Assembly (NCBI GenBank): GCA_036504095.1
Contig: DASXVS010000071.1
Coordinates: forward strand, 62,001 to 126,000
Direction of reading: 5' to 3'
DNA: 64,000 bases
Source: Armatimonadota bacterium
Lineage (GTDB): Bacteria; Armatimonadota; DTGP01; JAKQQT01
Numbering within the stretch: position 1 is the first letter of the stretch; each line of letters starts with the position of its first letter. The translations under genes were made by a program, and so were the position numbers. Below are positions 37,484-48,387 of the stretch, piece by piece. The notes below the pieces were generated by a model. The model searched no databases. It was not told where the DNA came from and was given only the letters and a program-made list of their open reading frames with translations.

Positions 37484-38047
37484 TCAGGCTCCGAGCATGC
37501 CCGCGGAACGCGCGTATTCAAATACATCGCCGGCTTCAAGTATCGGTAGAATATCGCCCAGCGGCTTCAGCGCAAACTCTTCGCCCGTGGTGATATCGTA
37601 CAGCGTATTGGATTCCAGATCGACGCGAACGGTATCGCCGGTGCGCACCCGGTCCACAAGACGCTCGGGGGTTTCGTACGGAATCAGGTATCCGCCGTTC
37701 ACGGAATTGCGGAAAAATATCCGTGCATAGAACTCCGCTATCACCACCTTGATCCCAGCCTCCGCCAGCGCCAGGGGAGCGTGTTCGCGGGACGACCCGC
37801 ACCCGAAGTTCGTCCCGCCGATGATGACGGTGTAATCGCTCTTGCCGGACTCGCTGTCCACAAACGGCACATGGCCCCCGGGAAGACCCGCCCCTTCCGG
37901 AGGGACGCTGGAGAGCGCGTAGACACCAAACATTCGTCGTTCCTCGGGGATGCTTGTGCTGAACACGAGGTGTTCCGCCGGGATGATCTGGTCCGTGTCT
38001 ATATCATCACCCAATACATATACCTTACCTTCGATGCTTGTTTCCAT
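37484..38047 (-). CDS. leuD: 3-isopropylmalate dehydratase small subunit
   Basis: 187 residues; swivel-domain partner of LeuC. GKVYVLGDDIDTDQIIPAEHL at the start and GTNFGCGSSREHAPLALAEAGIKVVIA are hallmark motifs. It is closer in length to the short archaeal/bacterial type than to enterobacterial LeuD. gaggag lies about 6-7 bases before the ATG, partly inside the preceding DUF815-like gene, whose stop is 3 bp upstream. LeuC is 2.5 kb away in the same cluster. Confidence 0.95.
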   Translation of the reverse strand: METSIEGKVYVLGDDIDTDQIIPAEHLVFSTSIPEERRMFGVYALSSVPPEGAGLPGGHVPFVDSESGKSDYTVIIGGTNFGCGSSREHAPLALAEAGIKVVIAEFYARIFFRNSVNGGYLIPYETPERLVDRVRTGDTVRVDLESNTLYDITTGEEFALKPLGDILPILEAGDVFEYARSAGMLGA

Positions 38048-38050
38048 TAT

Positions 38051-38956
38051 CTACTCCTCGGCGGCGCCATCGAGAGCGTGGCGCCCAATCCAATCATCCA
38101 CAAACTGCCTGGCGGACCGGCCGCTGCGGCCGTGGCTTCGACCCCAGGCCGCCGCGGCCGCCCGGACTTCGGCCGGATCCCCCGCCCGCCGATCGCGTTG
38201 CGCCAGTGCGTCTACAACGGCGAGATACCAGGCCTCGGTCGGTGCGGGGAATCCAAGGCGCAGACCGAACCGGTCCGCGAGAGAGGCCTTCTCTTCGGCC
38301 GCGTCACGCACGTGCAAATCGTCATCGTCGGTCCATGCATTGTCGCCGGCCCGTTTGGGCATGAGATGGCGGCGGTTGGCGGTTGCCACCACGCGCACAT
38401 TCGCCGGCATCGCCTGCACGCCGCCTTCCAGGATCGCCTTCAGTTCGCGCGCCAGCGGATCGTGGTCCTCAAACGCAAGATCGTCCAGCAGCACAATAAA
38501 CGTGTACGGCAGATCCGCGAGGAGGTCCACAACGGACGCCAGGTCCAGCAGTCCCGAGCGGCGCACATCAACGAGCCTGAGCCCTTCAGCGCAATGAGCG
38601 TTCAGCGCCGCCTTCACGATGGACGACTTACCGGTGCCCCGCGCGCCCCACAAGAGCACATGGTTGCACGGCAGTCGGCTCATCAATTGCCGCACATTGC
38701 GGTCGAATGCTGCCCACTGTGAGTCCACCCCTACGAGATCCTGCCGCGTAACGGGGTCCACATGGCGGACGGCCTCAAATACGCCACGATCTACCCTGAC
38801 GCGGTACCGGAACGCGGCGAACGAATCGAAGTCCGGCGGCGCCAGAGCGTTATCCTGGGCGCTCATCAGGCACCCCACGCGGGTTACAAACGCATCCATT
38901 GCGCGTGCCAGGTTGTCTGTGGCCTCTAGACTCACAACGTCCTCACCGTTCACCAT
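38051..38956 (-). CDS. P-loop ATPase of the DUF815 type
   Basis: 301 residues, AAA+-like. Walker A is LLWGARGTGKSSIVKA (about residue 103), Walker B IVLLDDLAFED (about 155) and a sensor-like RVVATANRRHLMPKR (about 188). SLADRFGLRLGFPAPTEAWYLAVV is typical of the DUF815 family. Function unknown in general; I see no partner gene. It is placed directly before leuD with a 3-bp gap, in a biosynthesis cluster where it has no obvious task. Confidence 0.85.
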   Translation of the reverse strand: MVNGEDVVSLEATDNLARAMDAFVTRVGCLMSAQDNALAPPDFDSFAAFRYRVRVDRGVFEAVRHVDPVTRQDLVGVDSQWAAFDRNVRQLMSRLPCNHVLLWGARGTGKSSIVKAALNAHCAEGLRLVDVRRSGLLDLASVVDLLADLPYTFIVLLDDLAFEDHDPLARELKAILEGGVQAMPANVRVVATANRRHLMPKRAGDNAWTDDDDLHVRDAAEEKASLADRFGLRLGFPAPTEAWYLAVVDALAQRDRRAGDPAEVRAAAAAWGRSHGRSGRSARQFVDDWIGRHALDGAAEE

Positions 38957-39056
38957 ACAAACGCATCATCCCGGCAGTCAAACCAATCGTGACGGCCAAA
39001 CGGCGCCGGTATCGGCTATCCTCATCGTATGTTTTCCGGAAGGTCAGAGTGCCGAG

Positions 39057-39971
39057 ATGCCTGAACTCCCCGATATTACAATCTACATCCGCGCCATCGA
39101 GAAGCGGACACTCGGGAAACGCCTGCTCGGATTGCGCCTCTCAGGCCCATTCTTTCTGCGCACCGTAACTCCGCCTGTCTCCGACCTGACAGGGCGCTCC
39201 GTCGTCGCCATGCACCGCCTCGGCAAGCGCATTGTGTTCGAACTCGAGGACGACCGGTTCATCATTCTGCACCTGATGATCGCGGGGAGGCTCCACTGGA
39301 AGCCCGCCTCCGTGAAAATCGGCGGGAAGGTGGCGCTGGCGGCGCTTGACTTCGATACCGGGTGCCTGCTCGTTACCGAAGCCGGGACGAAGAAGCGCGC
39401 ATCGCTCCACCTTGCCCGAGGCAAGGATGCTCTCGCTGCCTACCGCTCTGACGGCTTGGACCTGTTTGCCTGCTCGCAAGAGCAGTTCCGCCATCGGCTG
39501 CGTTCCGAGAACCACACCATCAAGCGCGCCCTCACCGATCCACACCTGTTCTCGGGCGTCGGAAATGCATATTCGGACGAGATTCTGCACCGCGCCCGCA
39601 TGTCACCTTTCGCGCTCACCTCCACGATGACCGAGGAGGACATAGCCCGCCTTCTGGCATCCGCACGGGATGTGCTCTCCGAATGGATCGATCGCCTCGC
39701 CGCCGAAGCGGGCGACGACTTTCCCGAAAAGGTGACCGCGTTTCGCGAAGAAATGGCCGTTCACGGCAAGTACGGGAAGCCGTGTCCCGTGTGCGGCTCT
39801 CCAGTCCAGCGCGTCGTATACGCGGAGAACGAGATGAACTACTGCGTCACCTGCCAGACTGGGGGGAAGCTCCTCGCAGACCGCGGACTATCCCGCCTCC
39901 TCAGATCCGACTGGCCGCGGACTCTGGATGAACTGGAAGGTCTGCGCCGAACCCCAGGCTCCGGACCCTGA
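39057..39971 (+). CDS. Formamidopyrimidine-DNA glycosylase family protein (Fpg/Nei)
   Basis: 304 residues. MPELPD at the N-terminus supplies the catalytic Pro2 and Glu3; LGKRIVFEL carries the conserved lysine around 60. The H2TH region has LTDPHLFSGVGNAYSDEILHRARMSP, and the C-terminal zinc finger has CPVCGSPVQ then CVTCQ (GRxTxxCPxCQ of true Fpg is altered to NEMNYCVTCQ). It may be an Fpg/Nei variant with different damage preference. It is the only plus-strand gene inside the leu cluster, transcribed against it. Confidence 0.87.
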   Translation: MPELPDITIYIRAIEKRTLGKRLLGLRLSGPFFLRTVTPPVSDLTGRSVVAMHRLGKRIVFELEDDRFIILHLMIAGRLHWKPASVKIGGKVALAALDFDTGCLLVTEAGTKKRASLHLARGKDALAAYRSDGLDLFACSQEQFRHRLRSENHTIKRALTDPHLFSGVGNAYSDEILHRARMSPFALTSTMTEEDIARLLASARDVLSEWIDRLAAEAGDDFPEKVTAFREEMAVHGKYGKPCPVCGSPVQRVVYAENEMNYCVTCQTGGKLLADRGLSRLLRSDWPRTLDELEGLRRTPGSGP

Positions 39972-39992
39972 AGGACCGCAACGTCCGCTATC

Positions 39993-40574
39993 TTACTTCC
40001 GGTCGAATCCCAGTGCCCCGTCAACGGCATCCCGTACCCTGTCTAGCGGAATGGGGCCGCAGCCGACATCGAGACATAGGTTCCGGAGTCGCGAAAGGGC
40101 AATGCTCTTCTGGAGGCCAAGAGCGGCTTCGATTTCTAGTTTGCCTAAGACGTAGAACTCCCACTGGGCGACGTCGAGAATGTGACATTCCTCGCGGCAT
40201 TTTGCCGTATGAACACAGAATACGTAGCAGTCGGCCGCTCTCTGCAGCGAATCGCCAAGCGTATTCGTCTGAGCATCCCAGGGAAGACGCTGCCGGATGT
40301 CAAAGACAATGCGACTTGGGCCAAACTGTGGCCAACTCTGTACGTAGCCGGACGACTTCACTTCGATGCCGCAGTCTCGATAGCGGAGATCTACGGCATC
40401 CCATTCGATACGAGCACAATCCACCACTTCCAGAGCTTTGCCTATCAGGTATTCGGCGAAAACGCTGCGAATCCCGTTGCTCACCACGTCGGAATACGCC
40501 CAGGACCAGAAATCCCCGACGGTGGACCTTTCAATCCCGGCAATCTGTGTATCGTGAGGAATCGGCCTCGTCAC
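39993..40574 (-). CDS. Uncharacterised protein with PD-(D/E)xK nuclease-like core
   Basis: 193 residues. DAVDLRYRDCGIEVKSSGYVQSW (Glu71, Lys73 and an upstream Asp around 60-68) fits the PD-(D/E)xK core of restriction-like nucleases, and SRIVFDIRQR with CYVFCVHT look like the following strands. No other family is recognised. The GTG at 40574 overlaps the leuC stop by 4 bp, so it is translationally coupled to leuC. Base composition seems a little lower in GC than neighbours. It may be a defence or mobile-derived gene, or a diverged nonenzyme; activity untested. Confidence 0.68.
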   Translation of the reverse strand: MTRPIPHDTQIAGIERSTVGDFWSWAYSDVVSNGIRSVFAEYLIGKALEVVDCARIEWDAVDLRYRDCGIEVKSSGYVQSWPQFGPSRIVFDIRQRLPWDAQTNTLGDSLQRAADCYVFCVHTAKCREECHILDVAQWEFYVLGKLEIEAALGLQKSIALSRLRNLCLDVGCGPIPLDRVRDAVDGALGFDRK

Positions 40575-41881
40575 ACATACTCCCGCGGGTCTGTTATGTA
40601 GCCATTCAGGGCGCTGGCGGCGACGGTCATCGGGCTGGCAAGGTAAACCTTACCTTCCTTGCTGCCCATCCTGCCCGGGAAGTTGCGGTTCGTCGTGCTG
40701 ATGCAGGATAGCGCGCTGTTCAGCCGCCCGAAAGTGTCGGAAGGCCCGCCGAGACATGCGGCGCAACTGGCCTGGCCAATCTGGGCCCCCGCCTCCTGGA
40801 ATATCTGCCAGAGGCTCTTCCCGTCCACCTTCTCCGTCCAAAGCGCCGCCGCCACTTCCGTGGTGGAAGGCACGACAAACGTGTCCATCTTGACCGTTTG
40901 CCCCTCGAGTATTCTCGCCGCCGCGATGAAGTCGGTGATCTTGCCGCCGGTGCACGAGCCGATGTAGGCCCGGTCCAGTTTTGTGCCCTTCAGTTCGCGG
41001 GCGGTTGTCTTGTTGTCCGGCGAATGCGGTTTCGCGACCGTCGGTTCCAGCTTGCTCACGTCGTAGTGGCGCTCGGAATAGAACTGCGCGTCGGCGTCGT
41101 TCGCCATGGCTTCGTAGTCGGACTTGGTTCCCGCTTTCCTGGTTCGCGCGTCCACGAAGTCCAGCGTCTTCCGGTCCGGCGCGATGATGCCGTTCTTGCC
41201 GCCAGCCTCGATCGCCATATTGCAGAGCGTCATGCGCTCTTCGATATTGAGGTCACCTATCGCCTGGCCGGCGAACTCAAGCGCGCGGTAGGTTGCGCCG
41301 TCCACGCCGATGTCGCCGATAACCTGGAGGATCAGGTCCTTCGCCATGAGATAGGGCGGCATTTCGCCCTCGAAGACGAACCGCATCGTCGGAGGAACCT
41401 TCAGCCACAGCTTGCCGGTGCCCAGGATGAAGCCCGCGTCCGTATTCCCGATGCCCGTCGCGAACTCGCCGAAAGCGCCCGCCGTGCACGTGTGGCTGTC
41501 CGTTCCGAAGAGCACCTCGCCCGGTCGGGTGTGACCTTCCTCGGGCAAGGCAATGTGGCACACTCCCTTGTAGCGCGTCGAGTTGACGTCGTAGTAGTAC
41601 GGCAGATCTTGTTCCTTCACGAAGTCGCGAAGAATGTCGACGTTGCGGTGCGCCTTTTCATCGGCTGTGAAGATGTAGTGATCCGGGATGATGACGACCT
41701 TGCTCTTGTCCCAGACCTTTGCCTCTGCGCCGAACTGCTCTTTGAAGATCTCGATCGTGCCAGGACCGCACACATCGTGCGTCATCAGCACGTCCACGTC
41801 CACCCAGATATTTTCACCCGGTTCCACGCTTGCCTTACCGGCATGCTTCGCCAGGATTTTCTCCGTCATTGTCATAGACAT
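40571..41881 (-). CDS. leuC: 3-isopropylmalate dehydratase large subunit
   Basis: 436 residues. Aconitase-family [4Fe-4S] enzyme: TEKILAKHAGK at the start, GTDSHTCTAGAFGEFATGIGNTD, and the cluster cysteines in IGSCTGGKITD and SCAACLGGP. RNFPGRMGS closes the active site. The start at 41881 matches the family N-terminus; ATG 41902 would add seven residues. LeuA is upstream (52 bp), and a nuclease-like gene overlaps the stop. Confidence 0.95.
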   Translation of the reverse strand: MSMTMTEKILAKHAGKASVEPGENIWVDVDVLMTHDVCGPGTIEIFKEQFGAEAKVWDKSKVVIIPDHYIFTADEKAHRNVDILRDFVKEQDLPYYYDVNSTRYKGVCHIALPEEGHTRPGEVLFGTDSHTCTAGAFGEFATGIGNTDAGFILGTGKLWLKVPPTMRFVFEGEMPPYLMAKDLILQVIGDIGVDGATYRALEFAGQAIGDLNIEERMTLCNMAIEAGGKNGIIAPDRKTLDFVDARTRKAGTKSDYEAMANDADAQFYSERHYDVSKLEPTVAKPHSPDNKTTARELKGTKLDRAYIGSCTGGKITDFIAAARILEGQTVKMDTFVVPSTTEVAAALWTEKVDGKSLWQIFQEAGAQIGQASCAACLGGPSDTFGRLNSALSCISTTNRNFPGRMGSKEGKVYLASPMTVAASALNGYITDPREYV

Positions 41882-41933
41882 ATCAAAACGCTCTTCCGTC
41901 ATTGTGGGCGGCCCGTGTGGGACGCCCGTCTGG

Positions 41934-43487
41934 TTATACCCGGTCTGTAACCGTTTCCTCGCTCGCGGGCTTGCCGGCGCCGCAGCGCGCGGCTATTTTG
42001 TTGATGGCCTGGATGTATGCCTTGGCGCTTGCTTCGACGATATCCAGTGCGCTTCCACGCCCTGTGAACACGTGTCCGTCCAGTTGCAGACGCACCGTCA
42101 CATCGGCCAGCGCGTCGGTGCCGCCCGTGACGCCGTGGACCATGTAGTCCTTGAGAGTGTACGGGATATTCACGATCTTGTCGATTGTCTTGTAGACGGC
42201 GTCCACGGCGCCGACCCCGGTCCCCGTCTCCAGGACGGCGCTGTCCTCGTGTTTCAACACGACCGTGGCGGTGGGATAGCCGTCCAGTGTCGTGTAGACG
42301 GTCATGTGGTCGAGGGCCCACTGCTCCGCGACAGCGTACACCTCGTCGGAAACAATGGCTTCGAGGTCGGCGTCATATATGTCCTTCTTGCGATCGGCCA
42401 TGTCCTTGAATCGGGCGAATGCGCGATTCAAGGCGTCCCGGTCCAGCTCGAAGCCCAGTTCCACCAGTCGTTTCTCGAAAGCGTGCCGGCCGCTGTGCTT
42501 GCCCAGTACCAGGCGGCTCTCAGCGAGACCTACGTCGGCCGGATCCATTATTTCGTAAGTGGTCCGTTCCATCATCACGCCGTGCTGGTGGATGCCGGCC
42601 TCATGGGCGAAGGCATTGGCGCCGACAATGGCTTTGTTCGGCTGGACGGCTGAACCAGTGACGTCGCTCACAAGCCGGCTCGCCCGCACGATCTCGCGCG
42701 TATTGATGCCAGTCTCCAGGCCAAACGCGTCTCCGCGCGTTTTGAGGATCATCACGATCTCTTCGAGGCTTGCGTTTCCCGCACGCTCACCGATGCCGTT
42801 GATGGTGCACTCCACCTGTCGCGCGCCCGCGGTGCAGGCGCTCAGGCTGTTCGCAACCGCCAGCCCCAGATCGTTGTGGCAGTGTACGCTCAGCGTGATG
42901 CCGGACGTTTCCGGCACGCGTTCGCGAACAACGATGATGAGTTCGAAATACTCGGTTGGCGTGGTGTAGCCCACCGTGTCCGGCAGGTTGATCGTGGTTG
43001 CCCCGGCGGCGATGGCCACCCGGACGACCTCGCACAGAAACCCGATGTCGCTCCGCGTGGCGTCCTCGGCGCTGAATTCCACGTCCGGCGTGTAGCTCTT
43101 GGCGCGGCGGACCGCCTTGTCCACCATCGCCAGCACTTCCTCGCGCGTCTTCTTCAGCTTGTATTTCAGGTGGATATCGCTTGTGGCGAGAAACGTGTGG
43201 ATGCGCGCGTTCTTGTTGCCTTGAATCGCTTCCCAGCAGCGGTCGATGTCGCCGTCGCTTGCCCGGCACAGGCCGCAAATGGTCGGCCCCTGAATGCGCT
43301 CCGCGATCGCCCGCACCGCCTCAAAATCACCGATGCTTGCGGCGGGGAAGCCGGCCTCAATCACATCAACGCCCAGCCGCGCCAATTGATTCGCGACTTC
43401 CAGTTTCTCTTCCAGGTTCATGCTGGCGCCGGGCGATTGTTCGCCGTCGCGCAGCGTCGTATCGAAAACCTTTACGGTATCAGCCAT
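41934..43487 (-). CDS. leuA: 2-isopropylmalate synthase
   Basis: 517 residues. It condenses acetyl-CoA and 2-oxoisovalerate, the first committed step to leucine. DTTLRDGEQSPGASMN gives the start of the HMGL-like barrel, with SVHCHNDLGLAVANSL carrying the metal-binding His pair. The C-terminal LeuA dimer/regulatory domain (about 365-505) shows GAVDAVYKTID, typical of leucine feedback. gaggggc lies 8 bases before ATG. The 266-bp leader upstream contains a small leucine-rich ORF and three hairpins (separate entries). Confidence 0.96.
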   Translation of the reverse strand: MADTVKVFDTTLRDGEQSPGASMNLEEKLEVANQLARLGVDVIEAGFPAASIGDFEAVRAIAERIQGPTICGLCRASDGDIDRCWEAIQGNKNARIHTFLATSDIHLKYKLKKTREEVLAMVDKAVRRAKSYTPDVEFSAEDATRSDIGFLCEVVRVAIAAGATTINLPDTVGYTTPTEYFELIIVVRERVPETSGITLSVHCHNDLGLAVANSLSACTAGARQVECTINGIGERAGNASLEEIVMILKTRGDAFGLETGINTREIVRASRLVSDVTGSAVQPNKAIVGANAFAHEAGIHQHGVMMERTTYEIMDPADVGLAESRLVLGKHSGRHAFEKRLVELGFELDRDALNRAFARFKDMADRKKDIYDADLEAIVSDEVYAVAEQWALDHMTVYTTLDGYPTATVVLKHEDSAVLETGTGVGAVDAVYKTIDKIVNIPYTLKDYMVHGVTGGTDALADVTVRLQLDGHVFTGRGSALDIVEASAKAYIQAINKIAARCGAGKPASEETVTDRV

Positions 43488-43510
43488 TGTTTTTGCCCCT
43501 CATTGTTTTT

Positions 43511-43601
43511 CGGCGGAGTCAAGCCCGCCGGTCCACTTGCCACTTTTCAACATATCCACACTACACGCTGTGGATAACCTTGTCCGCCCTTTCGGGCAAG
43601 G
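43511..43601 (-). promoter_or_regulatory. leuA leader hairpins, possible attenuation or translation control region
   Basis: Read on the minus strand from the leader ORF towards leuA. Stem 1: ccttg (43578-43582) / caagg (43597-43601) with inner ccc/ggg and a gaaa loop, overlapping codons 20-27 of the ORF. Stem 2: tatccaca (43553-43560) / tgtggata (43569-43576), perfect 8 bp, spanning the ORF stop. Stem 3: cggcgg (43511-43516) / ccgccg (43525-43530), perfect, about 20 bases before the leuA start region. None is followed by a U-run on this strand, so control would be at translation or through Rho rather than an intrinsic terminator. Confidence 0.55.
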
Positions 43602-43659
43602 TAAGGAGGAGTCCGCCCAGGGGCATCGAGCGGTACTGGTTTTCGGTTATGTGCTGCAT
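43561..43659 (-). CDS. Leucine-rich leader peptide upstream of leuA
   Basis: 32-codon ORF with ATG at 43659 and TAG at 43563-43561. The Shine-Dalgarno aaaggagg is 5-6 bases upstream, as good as any in the window. The peptide begins MQHITENQYRSMPLGG and continues with LLLTLP; codons 17-19 are CTC CTC CTT, with further Leu at 14 and 21, so 5 of 32 residues are leucine. It ends 74 bases before leuA. Position, leucine run and nearby hairpins resemble Leu leader peptides of attenuated leu operons. It may instead be a small functional protein. Too short for default gene callers. Confidence 0.65.
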   Translation of the reverse strand: MQHITENQYRSMPLGGLLLTLPERADKVIHSV

Positions 43660-43676
43660 TATCTCCTCCTTTGCAG

Positions 43677-43748
43677 AGGGCTGTGGGCTGAGGGAGGAGG
43701 GCTGAGAAAGGAATCACTCAGCCCTTCCGCGCCTCAGCCCTCAGCCCT
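43677..43748. repeat. Intergenic word-like inverted repeat between ilvC and the leuA leader
   Basis: 43677-43693 and 43732-43748 pair over 17 bp with one mismatch; inner agggctgag (43698-43706) / ctcagccct (43717-43725) is perfect. The word is agggctgag/gggctgagg. It precedes the leader ORF ribosome site on the minus strand and would form a strong structure downstream of ilvC. Confidence 0.7.
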
Positions 43749-43754
43749 ATCGAA

Positions 43755-44822
<1,068 letters not shown>

Positions 44823-45032: not shown

Positions 45033-45563
45033 CTAACGGCCCTCCAGCATCGGCGCCTGAATCCCGCGCTCGCCATACGCCGTCGTGGCGCCGCGAGCCA
45101 TGACGATGGCTCCCGTCCGAACCGTTTCCTTGATACCATACGGGTGCAGGAGACGCTCAATGGCGTCAATCTTGTCCGGTTCGCCGGTCACTTCGAGCGT
45201 GAACGTGTCTTCGGGGCTCATGTCTACGATGTTTGCGCGGAATACATCGGCGATCTGCATGATTGCCTGGCGCGACTCCGGCGGCGCCGAGACTTTCACC
45301 AGCGCCAGTTCGCGCTGCAGCACTTCCTTGTCCGTGTAGTCCGCGACACGAACGACATCTATGAGCTTGTCCGTCTGCTTGACGATTTGCGCCAGGGTCT
45401 GGTCGTCGCCTTCCGCTACCAGCGTGATGCGGCTCACGGTCGGATCGTTGGTGATGCTGACAGCCAGCGAGGCAATGTTGAATCCGCGGCGCGCGAACAG
45501 GGACGCCACGCGGGCAAGCACGCCCGGCTTATTCTCGACCAGTACGGTTATCGTGTGTTGCAT
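45033..45563 (-). CDS. ilvN: Acetolactate synthase small (regulatory) subunit
   Basis: 176 residues. An ACT domain (residues 3-77, MQHTITVLVENKPGVLARVASLFARRGFNI) binds valine or another branched-chain amino acid and controls IlvB; the C-terminal ALS_ss_C domain (about 85-160) follows. The ATG at 45563 has gggagc 5 bases upstream. Unlike most genomes, ilvB and ilvN are separated by a zinc-ribbon gene. Confidence 0.95.
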   Translation of the reverse strand: MQHTITVLVENKPGVLARVASLFARRGFNIASLAVSITNDPTVSRITLVAEGDDQTLAQIVKQTDKLIDVVRVADYTDKEVLQRELALVKVSAPPESRQAIMQIADVFRANIVDMSPEDTFTLEVTGEPDKIDAIERLLHPYGIKETVRTGAIVMARGATTAYGERGIQAPMLEGR

Positions 45564-45628
45564 ATTGCTCCCATCTTGACAGTTGCCACGGACCGGAAAC
45601 CCCGTCCCAGGCGCCCGACACTGAGTTA

Positions 45629-46240
45629 TCACTCCACCCACGTGTGCCCACAATCCAAGCAGCGGTGACGCATGACCTTGACGCGGCCGACATCGCGGTT
45701 CCAGTCCACGCGATTGGTGCGGTACATTCCTATGGTGCCAAACAACATGGTGCCCAACGCCGCGGCATCGGATACGATGTCAACGGCGGTCGATACCCAG
45801 TCGTTCTTCCATTGGCGCTCAACGTTTGTACCCGCGCACATCGGGCAATGGACGATCGGAGCGGTATCCATAAACGGCACGCCGCTTACCGGCAGCGGCT
45901 GCACCGCCACATTCCGAGTCGCGAAACACGTGTTGCACATCTCCTGCCGCTCCGACACGATAAACGGTATTTTCCGGTGGCACACCGTGCAGTAGCGCGG
46001 GTTGAACTCGTCCTCCGCCGTCCATTCATCGGACTCTGATTCCGCCTTCGGCGTCAACGCAGGCAGAACCTCTTGTTCGGGCGCTCGCAACGGCTCATAC
46101 GTCCGGGACGATGACGGGGCCCCTTCCGCTTGAAGCGGTGTCGGTACGTCGAAACCGGGCGGTTGCGCCGTTTCCGTCCCCGCATCCGGGGCCGGCCCAG
46201 CCGGCCCCATATGCCTGTCGATGTCGTCCCAGGAATTCAT
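45629..46240 (-). CDS. Uncharacterised zinc-ribbon protein between ilvB and ilvN
   Basis: 203 residues. The N-terminal 85 are proline-rich, acidic and probably disordered. From about 85 are cysteine pairs CTVC...CNTC, then CPMC and CLDC (CTVCHRKIPFIVS, MCNTCFATRN, VHCPMCAGTN, HRCLDCGHTW), forming two or three zinc knuckles. No membrane span. The ATG is 3 bp after the ilvB stop, so it is co-translated. Not recognised as a known family. Confidence 0.7.
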   Translation of the reverse strand: MNSWDDIDRHMGPAGPAPDAGTETAQPPGFDVPTPLQAEGAPSSSRTYEPLRAPEQEVLPALTPKAESESDEWTAEDEFNPRYCTVCHRKIPFIVSERQEMCNTCFATRNVAVQPLPVSGVPFMDTAPIVHCPMCAGTNVERQWKNDWVSTAVDIVSDAAALGTMLFGTIGMYRTNRVDWNRDVGRVKVMRHRCLDCGHTWVE

Positions 46241-46243
46241 CCG

Positions 46244-47971
46244 TTATCCGGGGATATTGGCCTTGTCCAGATCCCCTGCCTCCAACGCCGTCGGCGCGCG
46301 CAGAATCATGTTGTGCACGGTGCTTCCCGCGGGAATCATCGGAAAGACGTTTCCCTCTTTCAGAACCTGCATGTCGATAACCGTCGGCCTGTCCGTGATA
46401 TTTCGCGCCGCCTCCAGCGTGCTGACCACGTCCTCCGCCTTGTCGCATCGCAAACTTGCCGCGCCGTACGCTTCCGCCAGCTTCACAAAGTCCGGAGCCT
46501 GCTCCATATCCGTTTCACTGTAGCGTCCGTCGAGGAACATTGCCTGCCATTGGCGCACCATTCCCAGGAATTTGTTGTTCAAGATCAGGATCTTGATGGG
46601 CAGTTTATTGACCACCGCCACGATCAGTTCCTGGATGCACATCTGAATGCTGCCGTCGCCGGTGATGAGCCAGACCTCGTCGTTCGGGCACGCGAACTGC
46701 GCGCCGATCGAGGCCGGCAGGCCGTAACCCATGGTCCCGAGGCCGCCGGATGTGATGAACTGGCGCGGCCGCTTCACCTTGTAGAACTGGGCGGCCCACA
46801 TCTGGTGCTGCCCCACGTCGGTCACGACCAACGCATTCCCGTTTGTCGCCTTCCAGAGTTCGTCCAGTACATATTGGCTGTGCAGGGCGCCGTCGTCGCG
46901 CGGGTAGTCGAACGGGTGCTCCGCCATCCAGCCTTCAACGCGATCGTTCCAGACGGAGCGGTCGCGCAGGGCAACCGCCTGCACCAGCGCTCCTGCCACA
47001 GCCTTCGCGTCACCCAGCAACTGCAGGTGCGGGTTCTTGACCTTGCCGAACTCGGCCGGGTCGATATCGGCGTGGATGATGGTCGCGTGCGGTACGAATT
47101 CGTCGATTTTGCCGGTTACACGGTCGTCAAAGCGCGCCCCGATGGCGATCAGCAGGTCGCAATCCCGAACAGCCCAGTTCGAGGCCACACTGCCGTGCAT
47201 TCCCAGCATACCCAGGCTCAGCGGGTCGGTTTCGTCGAAAGCGCCCTTGCCCATCAGCGTCGTGGTGATCGGAATGTTGGTCTTTCGCACCAGCGCATCG
47301 ATTTCCGAGGCCGCTCCGGCGTTGATGACGCCGCCACCCACATACAGTACGGGTCGCTCCGCCTTGGCGATGAGCTCGGCCGCCGCGTCAATGCTCTCCG
47401 GGTCGACCGGATAGTCCACGGTATAGGATCGAGGACGTGTGACGACCTTTTCCGGGTCGTAATCGACCTCGGTCAGCAGCATGTCTTTGGGGACGTCGAT
47501 CAGCACCGGGCCCGGGCGCCCCGTGCGGGATATCGTGAAGGCCTGCGCCACGGTATCCGCGACCTTGGTGGCATCCTTGACCAGATAGTTGTGCTTCGTG
47601 CAGTTCATGGTGATGCCGGTCACGTCCGCTTCCTGGAAAGCGTCCTTGCCGATCATCGGGGACGCCACCTGTGCGGTGATCGCCACGATCGGCGTACTAT
47701 CCATCAAAGCGTCCGCGAGGGGTGTGACGAGGTTGGTTGCGCCCGGCCCGGACGTCGCAAGGCAGCTGCCAACGCGGCCGGATGCCCGGGCGTAGCCTTC
47801 CGCCATGTGCCCGGCGCCCTGTTCGTGCCGGACGAGAATATGTGTTATGCCCGTGGTGCCGTAAAGCGCGTCGTAGATCGGCAACGCCGCGCCGCCCGGA
47901 TATCCGAAGATGATCTCGACGCCCTCGCGCTTCAGTTGTTCCACCAGGGCCTCGGCCCCATTCATCTTCAT
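46244..47971 (-). CDS. ilvB: Acetolactate synthase large (catalytic) subunit
   Basis: 575 residues, TPP- and FAD-dependent. The catalytic Glu50 lies in RHEQGAGHMAEGYARASG; the FAD region is about 190-330; the TPP/Mg motif is GDGSIQMCIQELIVAVVNKLPIKI with the downstream NN. It makes acetolactate from two pyruvates, starting valine and leucine synthesis. The mRNA leader carries a T-box riboswitch. ggagcg lies before the ATG, and a word-like hairpin lies between the T-box terminator and the start. Confidence 0.97.
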   Translation of the reverse strand: MKMNGAEALVEQLKREGVEIIFGYPGGAALPIYDALYGTTGITHILVRHEQGAGHMAEGYARASGRVGSCLATSGPGATNLVTPLADALMDSTPIVAITAQVASPMIGKDAFQEADVTGITMNCTKHNYLVKDATKVADTVAQAFTISRTGRPGPVLIDVPKDMLLTEVDYDPEKVVTRPRSYTVDYPVDPESIDAAAELIAKAERPVLYVGGGVINAGAASEIDALVRKTNIPITTTLMGKGAFDETDPLSLGMLGMHGSVASNWAVRDCDLLIAIGARFDDRVTGKIDEFVPHATIIHADIDPAEFGKVKNPHLQLLGDAKAVAGALVQAVALRDRSVWNDRVEGWMAEHPFDYPRDDGALHSQYVLDELWKATNGNALVVTDVGQHQMWAAQFYKVKRPRQFITSGGLGTMGYGLPASIGAQFACPNDEVWLITGDGSIQMCIQELIVAVVNKLPIKILILNNKFLGMVRQWQAMFLDGRYSETDMEQAPDFVKLAEAYGAASLRCDKAEDVVSTLEAARNITDRPTVIDMQVLKEGNVFPMIPAGSTVHNMILRAPTALEAGDLDKANIPG

Positions 47972-48041: not shown

Positions 48042-48387
48042 AAAAAGAAAAATCCCCCCGTCCGCTTTGGGACGAGAGGTTGCTCGTGGTACCACCCAAG
48101 TTCGCCGACCCGCAAGCGGGCCTGCCTTGTTAAGACGCCATATCGGTGGCGACTACCGGGGAAACCTACTTTGCCGCATCCACTCTCACTGTAGGGCCGG
48201 CCTCCATGCCGGTCTTCCATGAGACAGGCAGAGACGCCTGTCCTACTGTGAGCGTTGTGCGGTGTTCAGAATCCCTGCTCCGAGGCGAGCGTTCAGCGGT
48301 GGGTGGGACCGGTTCTCAGCTTCAGCCCGGCTCTCTTTGCCGCGCCCGTCCCGCTTACTTCTCCTCATCAACGCGTTTTATGCAATT
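48042..48387 (-). promoter_or_regulatory. T-box riboswitch (probable leucine, CUC specifier) upstream of ilvB
   Basis: Read on the minus strand. The 5' part has gatgaggagaagta (AGUA bulge region of stem I), agagagccggg in stem I, and a specifier region gaacgctcgcctcggagc, in which CTC (Leu) is followed by GC-CTCGGAG as in ilv-leu T-boxes. The T-box sequence tgggtggtaccacg (48085-48098) is near-canonical. The terminator is ggacgagagg / ccccccgtcc (48070-48079 and 48054-48063), a 10-bp stem with two G-U pairs, then ATTTTTCTTTTT. Uncharged tRNA-Leu would favour the antiterminator and ilvB transcription. Specifier frame is inferred. Confidence 0.85.
48192..48247. repeat. Compound palindrome inside the T-box leader
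   Basis: Two related hairpins back to back: gtagggccggcctccatgcc... and its inverted counterpart ending gcctgtcctac. ggccggcctccatgccggt and gacaggcagagacgcctgtc are each self-complementary. The ends gtagg/cctac (48192-48196, 48243-48247) close the whole. It occupies the variable region between stem I and the T-box sequence and looks like an inserted intergenic repeat. Confidence 0.55.

Follow-up and report, generated by a model that had tools for sequence, protein, structure and literature searches.

A leucine-codon-rich small ORF between ilvC and leuA in a T-box-headed ilv-leu cluster of an Armatimonadota bacterium

The LEU element of Actinobacteria contains a Leu-rich upstream open reading frame (ORF) whose codon run pairs with the Shine-Dalgarno (SD) sequence of leuA, and mutation work on the element did not support classical attenuation (PMC1262725). 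In proteobacterial leu leader attenuators, leuA is preceded by stems and, ahead of these, by a short SD-led ORF in which Leu codons stand side by side. A 32-codon ORF with features of both lies between ilvC and leuA in an ilv-leu cluster of an Armatimonadota bacterium (contig DASXVS010000071.1, positions 62,001 to 126,000; these 64,000 nucleotides are referred to as the window). A preliminary description of the window proposed that this cluster is doubly leucine-regulated, by a T-box at its head and by the small ORF acting as a leader peptide. The T-box half of the proposal is confirmed and the element conserved, while the leader-peptide half is not established, the ORF being absent from a sister genus of the same family. 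We judge it somewhat probable that leuA and leuC are under T-box control, and that the ORF lies in a lineage-specific expanded spacer and does not sense leucine. The elements concerned, all on the minus strand, are as follows.

48065..48380, minus: T-box leader, head of the ilv-leu cluster (Rfam RF00230 match)
46244..47971, minus: ilvB, acetolactate synthase large subunit (ORF; identity by sequence and synteny)
45033..45653, minus: ilvN, small subunit (ORF; start probably 45563)
43755..44777, minus: ilvC (ORF; EWILEN motif)
43677..43748, minus: GGGCTGA heptamer inverted repeat of a dispersed type, within the ilvC-leuA spacer
43663..43671, minus: SD of the small ORF, AAGGAGGAG
43561..43659, minus: candidate leader ORF, 32 codons
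43603..43611, minus: Leu codons 17-19 of the small ORF, CTC CTC CTT
43578..43601, minus: stem 1, within the small ORF (folding)
43553..43576, minus: stem 2, spanning the small-ORF stop, with an inverted DnaA-box-like pair TTATCCACA/TGTGGATA (folding)
43511..43530, minus: stem 3, between the small-ORF stop and the leuA SD (folding)
43496..43501, minus: leuA SD, GAGGGG
41934..43487, minus: leuA, 2-isopropylmalate synthase (ORF; 80% identity to the sister-genus LeuA)
40571..41902, minus: leuC (ORF)

The T-box (48380-48065) matches RF00230 over its full length (model positions 1-219) with an E-value of 1e-17 and 83.7 bits, below the gathering score of 93, and contains the stem I motifs, the specifier loop, and the UGGUACC antiterminator bulge. 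The nearest LeuA, 80% identical, comes from the metagenome-assembled genome of an Armatimonadota bacterium of the sister genus, whose T-box has the same stem I and scores above the gathering threshold (99.9 bits, E 1.4e-21). The specifier is likely CUC, and the amino acid leucine, judging from GAACGCUCGCC, which in both T-boxes aligns CUC to the model specifier with a one-base insert. By analogy with other members of the family, uncharged tRNA-Leu bound to this T-box would permit expression into the whole cluster, and thereby of leuA and leuC. The small ORF is 4.4 kb downstream of it, and an Rfam search of the ilvC-leuA spacer revealed no second T-box, riboswitch, or known leader. T-boxes also stand directly upstream of leuA in several other Armatimonadota families (coordinate comparison; e.g. 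G042, G048, G010, G029, G016, G058), which supports T-box control of leuA without a sensing ORF.

In the sister genus, the T-box, ilvB, ilvN, ilvC, leuA, and leuC occur in the same order, and the ilvC-leuA spacer is 46 nt long, without the ORF, its SD, or its Leu run. Retention of the T-box, the order, and leuA around an ORF-less spacer argues against leucine sensing by the ORF, and such a loss in close relatives is what the preliminary description had itself named as speaking against a leader. Searches of 291 Armatimonadota genomes and of plasmids and phages gave no homolog of the unique 189-nt stretch in the window's spacer. BLAST matches of this stretch within the phylum (best E 0.0017) were short and scattered along the query and were taken as chance, as were weak matches of the ORF peptide among 61 relatives (E 0.2-2), for which position was not compared. 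The lack of plasmid and phage matches also led us to reject an origin of the spacer from either source. Among 90 leuA starts examined in the phylum, ilvC is directly upstream in 32 others, with spacers of 3-199 nt, all shorter than the 267 nt of the window. Three consecutive Leu codons within an SD-led ORF were seen in the window only (0/89 other leuA starts), and the absence of such an ORF from the 32 other ilvC-leuA junctions further supports the reading without leucine sensing.

The make-up of the spacer points the same way. Of the 267 nt, 72 bases form a GGGCTGA-heptamer palindrome and about 190 nt are unique, consistent with a lineage-specific, repeat-expanded spacer. The GGGCTGA repeat has approximately 100 partial matches in the genome, where GGGCTGAGGGCTGA occurs 104 times vs. 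0 for the reversed pattern; the heptamers often form palindromes or tandem arrays with steps of 7, 21, or 28 bp. The small ORF encodes MQHITENQYRSMPLGGLLLTLPERADKVIHSV and has a perfect SD, AAAGGAGGAG, immediately upstream of its ATG. Its five Leu residues are at codons 14, 17, 18, 19, and 21, so that the reported ORF length, SD, codon run, and Leu total are all borne out by the sequence; the ORF does end just upstream of leuA, although the distance from its stop to the leuA ATG (43487) is 73 rather than 74 bases. However, reverse-complementing the SD AAGGAGGAG gives exactly the Leu codons CTCCTCCTT, and the two therefore count as one coincidence rather than as independent clues. The CTC CTC CTT run is half of an inverted repeat whose other half is the small ORF's SD; the two can pair over 9 bp, compared with 6 bp (one G-U) for the run and the leuA SD. 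Both the high-copy repeat and this complementarity argue for an ORF that does not sense leucine. No terminator-like site and no promoter were detected in the spacer, an absence that favours the same reading.

SD-led ORFs of 8-70 codons appeared in 12% of dinucleotide-shuffled versions of the 267-nt spacer (5000 shuffles). Genome-wide, AAGGAGG-N4-9-ATG occurs 98 times vs. 36 for the reversed pattern, and of 95 perfect-SD sites read, 69 lead ORFs no shorter than 90 codons; another 15, that of the small ORF included, lead ORFs of fewer than 60. Because such sites mostly lead long ORFs and exceed the reversed pattern, ribosomes can probably use the small-ORF start; a usable start does not, however, make the peptide functional. 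The ORF may thus be translated from its strong SD without sensing leucine, and the 15/95 figure, by which short ORFs behind perfect SDs are not rare, is in keeping with this.

The three stems fold as the preliminary description had placed them. Stems 1 and 2 alone are unusually structured (z -3.5), and the leader-to-leuA stretch as a whole is not (z -0.6 to -1.0). Folding of 320 nt predicts pairing between CUCCUC of the Leu codons and GAGGGG, the leuA SD, around stems 1-3. In folds that begin at the leader SD and extend into leuA, the leuA SD had a predicted unpaired probability of 0.07 without a ribosome; the value was 0.06 when a ribosome stood at the stop and 0.34-0.75 when the A site held codons 17-19. 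Similar switching was seen for 13 of 18 transcript ends tried and for none of the other 5. The leuA SD was also predicted to open with a ribosome on codons 5, 7-12, 14-16, 23, and 25-27.

These folds belong to the case for a leucine-responsive translational attenuator in series with the T-box, which we consider possible but doubtful. With leucine plentiful, the ribosome would reach the leader stop, the freed CUCCUC would pair with GAGGGG across stems 1-3, and leuA would be poorly translated; with leucine short, a ribosome stalled at codons 17-19 would cover CUCCUC and leave the leuA SD open. The perfect SD, the LLL run, and the position before leuA fit such a device, and the predicted opening with the ribosome on codons 17-19 goes beyond that of shuffled sequences. 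Several points accordingly weigh against the reading without leucine sensing: the difference in switching was reached by 0/300 shuffles, and by 1/300 with the Leu codons fixed, for a statistic devised only after the fold had been seen; an SD-led ORF with LLL arose in just 0.12% of the 5000 shuffles, before any discount for how many locations might have been scanned, and in the window it also adjoins a leucine-synthesis gene; and the close comparison comprises one same-family genome only, from a different genus (contig G001:C282), whereas attenuators can be lineage-specific. Against an attenuator stand its absence from the sister genus, the post hoc nature of the statistic, the 5/18 contexts without switching, the predicted opening of the SD by ribosomes on many non-Leu codons, and the inherently anti-SD character of CUC codons. 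Its layout is that of the actinobacterial LEU element, with which the locus shares a Leu codon run able to pair with the leuA SD as a base stem and the lack of a terminator; for that element, though, classical attenuation found no support when the Leu codons were mutated (PMC1262725). The LEU-type pairing in the window, 6 bp including a G-U pair, is predicted for the majority of fold contexts but not for all. The LEU element is conserved in most Actinobacteria with a pseudoknot, whereas the window ORF is known from a single genome and has no homolog, and membership is not claimed; moreover, the ORF is internal to an operon that already has a T-box at its head, and its Leu codons find their best complement in its own SD. 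That a single operon senses leucine twice, through the head T-box and an internal translational attenuator of separate Armatimonadota origin that uses Leu codons as a LEU-element-like leuA anti-SD, seems to us rather unlikely. If true, one operon would have a T-box and a leader peptide in series, both reading leucine, and the Leu-codon/anti-SD design would have a second origin; if not, the locus would exemplify how CUC codons, complementary to SDs, can make a chance ORF resemble a regulated leader.

The predicted opening of the leuA SD by ribosomes over much of the ORF would also fit an upstream ORF that is translated without amino-acid sensing, where ribosomes on the long spacer shield the mRNA from Rho or melt the structure over the leuA SD, and leuA is expressed despite the expansion. 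The strong SD, the tendency of perfect-SD sites to lead real genes, and the predicted closure of the leuA SD in the absence of a ribosome agree with this; its translation is nevertheless a supposition, the stop is still 73 nt short of leuA, and a ribosome at the stop is predicted to bring back the closed state, leaving this an improbable account. Classical transcription attenuation, with a terminator/antiterminator switch at the three stems, would be consistent with their position after the Leu codons. However, as the preliminary description had observed, the stems all lack U-runs, and the search for terminator-like sites gave none, making this explanation very unlikely. The locus differs from the proteobacterial leu attenuators in lacking a terminator/antiterminator pair, conservation, and an Rfam leader match, and in its internal position.

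Other candidate explanations for parts of the spacer were discarded. One idea, that the small ORF represents the ancestral start of leuA, since displaced, came from the resemblance of its SD region to the sister-genus leuA SD (score 26). It was dropped because a score this high is reached by 1.1% of random stretches of the window, and the true leuA start itself scores 22. Matches to miRNA families at 43665-43758 reflect a GC-rich palindrome and are meaningless in a bacterium. The stem 2 region (43553-43577) is the sole genome match to the inverted-pair pattern TTATCCACA/TGTGGATA, and single TTATCCACA sites number 18 vs. 9 for the reversed pattern; stem 2 is possibly a DnaA site or a product of chance.

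A family in the same phylum (f38; four genomes in three genera, G227-G230) has a conserved Leu/Ile-rich frame upstream of leuA (L329:1769-1800, L328:684-715, L330:1885-1910, and L331 from 2013, the last on the minus strand). Its core, CTCATCCTCGCGCTTATCTAGCCTGC, is LxLALI-like, with the peptide ending in LILALI in G227, and is followed by a GCCTGC...GC(G/A)GGC hairpin. One copy was searched against Rfam and gave no match. The f38 element is likely a genuine branched-chain leader-peptide element and illustrates how a conserved leader would look, an appearance that the window ORF does not share; a search of the window's genome with the core motif, made for homology between the two, gave no match.

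Along the minus strand the cluster runs T-box, ilvB, a zinc-ribbon-like ORF, ilvN, ilvC, spacer, leuA, leuC. The zinc-ribbon-like ORF, of 203 aa with cysteine pairs, occupies the ilvB/ilvN interval (45629-46240); the corresponding gap in the sister genus is shorter and has no long ORF. leuD (37484-38047) is parted from leuC by an ATPase-like ORF, an opposite-strand Fpg-like ORF, and an unknown ORF (region 37484-40574), unlike the sister genus (L077), where leuB starts approximately 1.1 kb past leuC.
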